NCBI RefSeq assembly: GCF_021018745.1
Contig: NZ_CP063845.1
Coordinates: 3,906,001 to 3,970,000 of the forward strand
DNA length: 64,000 nt
Reading direction: 5' to 3'
Source of the DNA: Gloeobacter morelensis MG652769
Lineage (GTDB): Bacteria > Cyanobacteriota > Cyanobacteriia > Gloeobacterales > Gloeobacteraceae
Under the pieces are notes generated by a model. It was not told the DNA's origin and made no database searches. It saw only the letters and a program-made list of their open reading frames with translations. Positions 47,794 to 49,930 of the stretch are shown here, piece by piece (the first letter of the stretch is position 1; each line of letters begins with the position of its first letter). The translations under genes were made by a program, and so were the position numbers.

Positions 47794-48084
47794 GTGAAAT
47801 TCTTGGATAATCCATACCAGTCCAGCGAGAGAAATCCAGTCGGCCGCACGGCCCCCAGTGCTGTAGACCCAGATCAAAGACCGATCGACACCATCACCTT
47901 TCGCGGTGAAATCGAAAAAGGCCGCGACTGGGTCGTCTTTGTCCGGCAGATGGTCAGTCGCCTCGACAGTCCGGCAGCCTGGCTGCGCGCCATCGCCATG
48001 GGAGTCGGAGCCCTGCTGATGATTTTCCCGAAGGCGGCCTGGTGCGCCCTGGTCAAACTCGGGATCGCCAAGGACAAGGACTGA
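47794..48084 (+). CDS. 96-residue protein with one membrane helix, unknown
   Basis: Starts at GTG five bases after the SUI1 gene. A polar N-terminal half (SSERNPVGRTAPSAVDPDQR) is followed by RQMVSRLDSPAAWLRAIAMG and a hydrophobic segment (VGALLMIFPKAAWCALVKLG). It is also 8 bases from the next gene, so it is embedded in the run. No family recognised. Could be a small inner-membrane anchor protein. Confidence 0.6.
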   Translation: MKFLDNPYQSSERNPVGRTAPSAVDPDQRPIDTITFRGEIEKGRDWVVFVRQMVSRLDSPAAWLRAIAMGVGALLMIFPKAAWCALVKLGIAKDKD

Positions 48085-48092
48085 ACGCATTT

Positions 48093-48635
48093 ATGTTTCT
48101 CGATACCAAAGATTACCCTTTTGCAGCGCACCTGGAAGCCAACTGGTGGGTTATCCTTGCCGAACTGCAGCAACTGGACAATCAAAACTTTTTTGCCTGG
48201 CCAGAAAAGCAGTACTACGGCGAGGGGTGGGACATCTTCGCGCTCTACACCTACGGGGTGCCGCTTGGCAAAAATTGCAAGCTCTGTCCGCAAACGGCCG
48301 CACTGGTCAAGCAAATCCCGGGCATGATGACGGCAGTCTTCTCCCGGATGGCCCCCGGTTTGCACATCGCCCCGCACCGGGGCGAACCGGCGGGGCTCTT
48401 GCGCTACCACCTGGGGCTGATCATCCCGCCCGGCTGTGGTTTGCGCGTCGGCCCCGAGACGCGCAGCGTCCAAGAAGGCGGCAGCATTGTCTTCGACGAC
48501 ACCACCGAGCACGAAGCCTGGAACCGCAGCGACCGCGAACGCATCGTGCTACTGGTGGATTTTAAATCCCCCAACGCCAAACAGGGCTTCACCCTCGCCA
48601 GCATGTTCCAACGCCTCAGGGGCGGCAAAAGTTAA
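48093..48635 (+). CDS. Aspartyl/asparaginyl beta-hydroxylase-like dioxygenase
   Basis: A 180-residue 2-oxoglutarate/Fe(II) oxygenase of the AspH/LpxO-like cupin fold. Key segments are APGLHIAPHRGEPAGLLRYH with the first iron-binding His, LGLIIPPGCGLRVG, and FDDTTEHEAWNRSDRERIVL with the second His and the 2OG-binding Arg. Members hydroxylate peptide Asp/Asn or lipid A acyl chains. Here the substrate is unknown. The TAA stop lies within the 8-bp direct repeat flanking the MITE-like element that follows, so the element inserted exactly at the end of the gene without changing the protein. Confidence 0.85.
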   Translation: MFLDTKDYPFAAHLEANWWVILAELQQLDNQNFFAWPEKQYYGEGWDIFALYTYGVPLGKNCKLCPQTAALVKQIPGMMTAVFSRMAPGLHIAPHRGEPAGLLRYHLGLIIPPGCGLRVGPETRSVQEGGSIVFDDTTEHEAWNRSDRERIVLLVDFKSPNAKQGFTLASMFQRLRGGKS

Positions 48636-48640
48636 AGTTA

Positions 48641-48822
48641 ACGTCAGTTCGGGTTAAGCTCAGGCTGAAATCCTTGCCTGGTCAGCTTTCCTCCGATTGG
48701 GGGCAAGGAGTTACGCCCTGAAACCCTGGTACGCGGGTTACCCAGTAGTAGTTTTGGGAACTGCATTCAGCAGGTTCCTTGGCCAGTGAGGCTTTTGGCG
48801 CTTCCTTATCCCGAACTGACGT
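48641..48822. mobile_element. MITE-like element, 182 bp, with 13-bp terminal inverted repeats and an 8-bp target duplication
   Basis: The termini are perfect inverted repeats: ACGTCAGTTCGGG at 48641-48653 and its complement at 48810-48822, with a further 4 matching bases inside after one mismatch. They are flanked by the direct repeat TAAAGTTA (48633-48640 and 48823-48830; the wider GTTAAAGTTA is also repeated), as a transposase leaves behind. The interior is GC-rich, can form local hairpins and codes for nothing. No transposase lies near, so it would depend on one encoded elsewhere. The upstream copy of the duplication contains the stop codon of the hydroxylase gene. Confidence 0.75.
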
Positions 48823-49021
48823 TAAAGTTAGCAACTAGCTGCAATTTACTGGTTTGTCGCGCTCGAACTTCACAAAGAGCAGACGCCGTATTTTGTTGCA
48901 ATTTTGGACAAAAGCTCAGCTAGAGCGGTTTGCTGTTGCGCAAACGATAACCGGGCGACCGCAAACCCCAATGGACGTCGATTGCAATCCTGACACCTGC
49001 TCTAGATTGCACCACTGAAGA

Positions 49022-49930
49022 TCAATCGAGCGAGCGGTCGATAATCCGCTGAATCAGTTGCTCAAAGTTGATACCGGCGGCCTGGGCCGCCTCGGGGGCC
49101 AGGGACGTGGCGGTCATGCCGGGTAGGGTATTGACTTCGAGCACCCAGGGCTGCCCTTCAGGATCGACGCGCACGTCGGCGCGCACCAAGCCGGTGCTGC
49201 CCACCGCCCGGCAGGCGCGGTAGGCGGCATCGACGCTCGCCTTGAGCACATCGGCTGCGAGATTCGGGGGAATCAGATGGCGCGAGCCGCCCGGGGCGTA
49301 CTTCGCTTCGTAGTCATAAAATTCACGCCCCTGCGGGACGATCTCGATGGCGGGCAGTACCAGCCCGTCGAGTAGGGCAACGGTAATTTCCTGGCCAGGA
49401 ATGTACCGCTCGATGAGCACCTGGGACGAATACTGCAAAGCCAGGCGCACCGCCTCGGGGATCTGCGTGGCCTCCGCGGCGATCGTAACGCCCACCGTCG
49501 AGCCGCCGTCCGCCGGTTTGATCACCAAAGGCGAACCCAATACCCGCAGCCACTCTTTGCACTCGGTCAGTTCCGGTACTACCTCAGCCACCCGGTAGGC
49601 GGGGGTGGGGATGCCCTCGGCGATGAACAACCGCTTGGAGACGATTTTGTCCATGGCAATGGCACTCGCCGTCACCCCCGAACCGTTGTAAGGCAAGCCC
49701 AGCCAGTCGAGCAACCCCTGCAATTTGCCGTTTTCACCCTTGTCGCCGTGCAGAGCGATCCAGACAAAATCGGGGGGATTTTCCAACAGGCGCACCGGCA
49801 GATCCGGACCGGGATCGATCACCGTTACCTCGTGGCCCAGCTTTTCGAGGGCGACCTGCACCGCCCGGCCGCTCGCCAGCGACACTTCCCGCTCGGGCGA
49901 ATCGCTCCCCGACAGCACCGTAACGCGCAT
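49022..49930 (-). CDS. ddl: D-alanine-D-alanine ligase
   Basis: Makes the D-Ala-D-Ala dipeptide for peptidoglycan precursors. The 302-residue ATP-grasp enzyme shows VTVLSGSDSPEREVSLASG at the start, the signature WIALHGDKGENGKLQGLLD, the ATP-grasp lysine region LGSPLVIKPADGGSTVGVTI and the metal-binding GQPWVLEVNTLPGMTATSLA. Complete. Last gene of a same-strand run (PilP/GspC-like, ftsQ, ftsZ, ddl) and 77 bases after ftsZ. A GC hairpin at 49968-49983 in that gap may reduce read-through from ftsZ. Confidence 0.97.
   Translation of the reverse strand: MRVTVLSGSDSPEREVSLASGRAVQVALEKLGHEVTVIDPGPDLPVRLLENPPDFVWIALHGDKGENGKLQGLLDWLGLPYNGSGVTASAIAMDKIVSKRLFIAEGIPTPAYRVAEVVPELTECKEWLRVLGSPLVIKPADGGSTVGVTIAAEATQIPEAVRLALQYSSQVLIERYIPGQEITVALLDGLVLPAIEIVPQGREFYDYEAKYAPGGSRHLIPPNLAADVLKASVDAAYRACRAVGSTGLVRADVRVDPEGQPWVLEVNTLPGMTATSLAPEAAQAAGINFEQLIQRIIDRSLD

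Follow-up and report, generated by a model that had tools for sequence, protein, structure and literature searches.

A short IS982-ended element, very probably a MITE, at the stop codon of a hydroxylase gene in Gloeobacter morelensis

Results

The hydroxylase locus and the element at its 3' end

The window considered here is the whole stretch of DNA that was analyzed, 64,000 nucleotides at positions 3,906,001-3,970,000 of the 4,921,229-bp chromosome of Gloeobacter morelensis MG652769. Within it, a gene for an aspartyl/asparaginyl beta-hydroxylase-domain protein faces a D-alanine--D-alanine ligase gene, and a 182-bp element flanked by direct repeats follows the first of these (Table 1). The hydroxylase open reading frame starts at 48042 or 48093, and its TAA stop codon (48633-48635) lies inside the left duplication, as the first-pass annotation of this DNA had noted.

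That annotation had described a MITE-like element with perfect 13-bp terminal inverted repeats, and these are present: ACGTCAGTTCGGG at 48641-48653 finds a perfect reverse-complement match at 48810-48822, and the similarity extends to 17 of 18 positions over 18 bp. An inverted-repeat search, which took in the duplications, returned 26-nt arms at 88%. The 182 bp that had been placed between the repeats is instead the length of the whole element with its ends, the repeats themselves enclosing 156 bp; likewise, the span given for it, 48633-48830, is right once the duplications are counted. The flanking direct repeat is indeed 8 bp, and the longer figure of 10 bp borrows GT from the element's right end. 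No open reading frame spans the element, in keeping with the earlier view that it is non-coding and lacks a transposase, and its size (below about 300 bp) is that of a MITE.

Table 1. Features of the locus, in window coordinates
Feature	Position	Strand	Remarks
Aspartyl/asparaginyl beta-hydroxylase-domain protein (host gene)	48093..48635	+	PF05118 (Asp_Arg_Hydrox), 2.5e-49; intact
Left target-site duplication	48633..48640	+	TAAAGTTA; opens with the three bases of the hydroxylase stop
IS982-ended element, very probably a MITE	48641..48822	+	182 bp, non-coding; one of six genomic copies (copy 1)
Left end	48641..48659	+	perfect 13-bp repeat plus 6 bases; 19 bp identical to the resident IS982 element at its 3' end
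Interior	48660..48801	+	unrelated to the IS interior; outer parts resemble other cyanobacterial MITEs
Right end	48802..48822	-	perfect 13-bp repeat plus 8 bases; 21 bp identical to the resident IS982 element at its 5' (transposase-start) end
Right target-site duplication	48823..48830	+	TAAAGTTA
D-alanine--D-alanine ligase (convergent neighbor)	49022..49930	-	PF07478, 1.1e-47

In the sister species, the hydroxylase ends at the same codon, with TAG as its stop; in the window, a second in-frame TAA (48639-48641) is formed where the TTA of the duplication meets the first A of the element. By this comparison, the insertion left the hydroxylase protein unchanged, which agrees with the earlier claim that the gene was kept intact. 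The accompanying claim that the 3' region was replaced is inexact, as the old downstream DNA is displaced and not replaced by the element. Both close relatives match the window locus only as far as 48637, beyond which they differ from the window and from each other. Synteny breaks across 48637-49021, the DNA 3' of the hydroxylase gene being different in each Gloeobacter species, and in relatives the ddl gene is found elsewhere. A 79-bp stretch of this region (48921-48999), 92% identical to a place in one Gloeobacter relative (G001) and with weaker copies in other Gloeobacter genomes, is possibly another small repeat.

Copies and empty sites

A genome-wide search with ACGTCAGTTCGGG, allowing at most one mismatch, returned 50 sites as against 3 for a reversed control pattern. 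Most form facing pairs 182 or 963 bp apart, a pairing that is far from chance. The pairs 182 bp apart include the five further copies of the MITE that the first-pass annotation had suggested looking for, and the chromosome thus carries six copies that are 99-100% identical over 182 bp: three, the window copy among them, are identical, and three differ at 2 of 182 positions. Target duplications measure 8 bp at the window copy and 7 bp at four of the five others. The remaining copy, L064 (C1:707968-708149), has no target duplication, and the sequences on its two sides correspond to separate places in a relative; it probably reflects recombination or deletion between copies.

Three other Gloeobacter species that were examined contain no copies of the 182-bp element, and the MITE has therefore spread recently. 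At L061, both close relatives have a single TAAGTTA in place of the element and its two duplications, in sequence 98-99% identical over 500 bp, and at L065 both have a single TAAGAAT; L062 and L063 also correspond to uninterrupted sites in relatives, in diverged form. The empty site sought in related strains was thus found at other loci, and the window locus offers no clean one in the relatives because synteny breaks there and the downstream DNA differs in each. Insertion at the window locus is instead suggested by its own duplication together with the other copies. At L061 (C1:1287948-1288129), the MITE copy has entered between AGGAG, the likely ribosome-binding site of a downstream gene, and the start codon ATG, which are 189 bp further apart as a result.

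A resident IS982 element with the same ends

The pairs 963 bp apart mark an insertion sequence with the ends of the MITE, such as the first-pass annotation had proposed searching for. It is present in 13 copies in the same chromosome that are base-for-base identical (e.g., C1:252290-253252), alongside one diverged copy and one 3' remnant. Its 291-aa transposase belongs to the IS982 family (NF033520 equivalog, 8.2e-73, 245 bits against a cutoff of 130). Members of this family are about 1 kb long, with ends that start with AC and target duplications of 3-9 bp, and the resident element, at 963 bp with ACGT... ends and 7-9 bp duplications, fits these features.

Immediately inward of the 13-bp repeat, the IS has different bases at its two ends: GGATAAGGAA at the transposase-start side and GGTTAAGC at the opposite side. 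The MITE carries one of each, identical over 21 bp and 19 bp on matching sides, with GGATAAG in IS and MITE alike at the transposase-start side and GGTTAAG at the other. Duplication length and a preference for TAA are also common to both; unlike the MITE, the IS encodes a transposase, and the interiors are unrelated.

Two of the identical IS copies, L076 (G000:C1:3267182) and L079 (4278168), lie in opposite orientation, and their target duplications are swapped, as TTGGTTTA/TAAACCAA and TTACTTA/TAAGTAA. This exchange is the signature of an inversion, about 1.01 Mb long, of the DNA that separates the two copies and includes the window. A TPR gene split between L076 and L079 is uninterrupted in one relative (G002; 89% over 504 bp), and the other junction is not contiguous in another (G001).

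Target sites and stop codons

Fourteen insertions in this one genome (5 MITE, 9 IS) have intact duplications of 7-9 bp. TAA starts 12 of these 14, and most end in TA, which a symmetrical target, TAA...TTA, would predict. Gene stops are touched by four of the 14, involving five genes in all: those of the hydroxylase (window copy), a Uma2 protein (L063), prephenate dehydrogenase (L078) and, at the IS copy L077, a TPR protein and a convergent CN-hydrolase-domain protein. At L077, the stops of the two genes are both cut, and the A with which the IS begins restores TAA for each of them.

In a 464-kb sample of the genome with simple gene calling, the share of sites that overlap a gene stop is 4.5-7.6% for TAA-type targets and 0.6% for 7-mers as a whole. 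Four of 14 exceeds even the motif expectation (P 0.003-0.02, depending on motif). Only three of the 14 insertions interrupt recognizable genes (an MFS transporter, HlyD and a PIN domain), as against about 50-70% of motif sites that fall within genes, and loss of gene-breaking insertions is the simplest reason for the excess at stops.

Related elements in other cyanobacteria

A pattern search for facing IS982-type ends 145-205 bp apart found matches in 31 of 390 cyanobacterial genomes, and a reversed control pattern found none. The matched elements that were read are about 168-215 bp long. The Gloeobacterales MAG ES-bin-141 (L110) has a full-length relative of the window MITE that is 71% identical throughout. 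Others (e.g., L149, L160-L162 and L178) resemble the window MITE in ends, length and target duplication; some have 30-40 bp of outer interior in common with it and others the ends only, and their centers are diverged or unrelated. Searches of a plasmid collection returned no match to the element, and among viral contigs a single one carried an IS982-ended MITE, which is in essence the same as the cyanobacterial MITE of L156.

We also considered a preference for stop codons as a general rule of these MITEs and rejected it: in the other cyanobacteria, only one of 14 IS982-ended MITEs lies at a stop, where the background rate is 2.8%, so that there is no strong general trend. For this reason, stop-codon placement is treated here as a by-product of target choice and not as a dedicated trick.

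Discussion

Taken together, the six near-identical copies, the 13 IS982 elements with the same ends, and the target duplications bear out the earlier MITE-like reading, and we consider it very probable that the stretch is a non-autonomous transposon moved in trans by a resident IS982 transposase. By its ends and polarity, the mover is almost certainly the 963-bp element. Its transposase would recognize the common ends, ACGTCAGTTCGGG and the adjoining TAAG, and either cut the element out or copy it; insertion would then use a staggered 7-9 bp cut, and the target, a roughly palindromic TAA...TTA, would be duplicated in the process. Placement on a stop codon follows from the preference of the IS for TAA targets. 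Within the genes of this GC-rich genome, TAA is necessarily out of frame, and because TAA is favored and in-gene TAA is of this kind, stop codons are struck far above chance. A stop that is itself cut (TA^A) is rebuilt by the A at the start of the element; at the window copy, the whole TAA is kept within the left duplication, which leaves the hydroxylase untouched, and the insertion is probably neutral for the host.

A more specialized version of this account, in which the cyanobacterial IS982 group evolved stop-sparing insertion through a TAA...TTA target combined with an end base, A, by which TAA is rebuilt on either side, seems unlikely. If true, it would let IS and MITE lodge at gene ends without damage, even between convergent genes as at L077.

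The first-pass annotation had also suggested that the element may serve as a transcription terminator or mRNA 3' stabilizer of the hydroxylase gene, in which case it might have been retained for that function. It does sit between convergent genes, and each of its strands is predicted to form a long hairpin (-80 and -75 kcal/mol, z -4.2 and -5.0). The interior alone, however, is ordinary (z -1.3 and -1.1), so that it is the terminal repeats that account for the extra stability, and the outer hairpin is not followed by a T-run; the element thus lacks the combination of a GC-rich hairpin with a T-run that marks an intrinsic terminator. A terminator scan gave one weak match inside the element against 1.0 expected by chance, an Rfam search of the locus had no match, and other copies lie within genes or upstream of a start codon. 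We regard such retention as very unlikely, and a role in hydroxylase expression is not supported. A conserved non-mobile intergenic feature, such as a structured RNA or regulatory site, could account for an identical sequence at three places, but absence from three congeneric genomes and the flanking duplications speak against it, and the empty sites refute it, leaving it practically no probability.

Another way to explain the identical ends and polarity is that the element is a degenerate IS982 copy, produced by internal deletion of the resident IS and not part of an established MITE lineage. Nothing of the IS interior is kept, however, the longest word common to the two interiors being 10 bases, which contradicts an origin of the MITE interior from the resident IS. 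The relative in ES-bin-141 is 71% identical and from another Gloeobacterales genus, so that the lineage predates the resident copies. We therefore hold a degenerate copy to be extremely unlikely, and favor an established MITE lineage.

Searches of one literature library found no paper treating Gloeobacter together with IS982 and none describing IS982-ended MITEs scattered through cyanobacteria; the combination of Gloeobacter with miniature inverted-repeat returned two papers that are, by title, about other organisms, with each term occurring once. MITEs as such are known in cyanobacteria (review PMC10969869, which cites Zhou et al. 2008 on Nezha). Nezha, a cyanobacterial MITE, reportedly has ends and a parental IS different from those of the window MITE. 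An IS982-derived example, MITECca01, comes from the Cardinium endosymbiont of Oedothorax gibbosus (Halter et al. 2022, PMC9769881). Like the window MITE, it is short and non-coding and has inverted repeats that match those of an IS982-family element resident in the genome (ISCca4); it retains almost nothing more of this parent IS, of which intact copies are present. It differs in its length of about 240 bp, its many more copies, its sequence, and its host, a Bacteroidota endosymbiont; no stop-codon or TAA target for MITECca01 was found in the passages of PMC9769881 consulted. With this precedent, the window MITE represents a new family within a type already known. Together with its IS, it forms a recently active IS982-MITE pair, here in a basal cyanobacterium, and it gives a simple reason for finding such elements on stop codons. 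Because the copies are identical, the target is known and sister species have been sequenced, recent transposition can be conveniently read here from a natural record.
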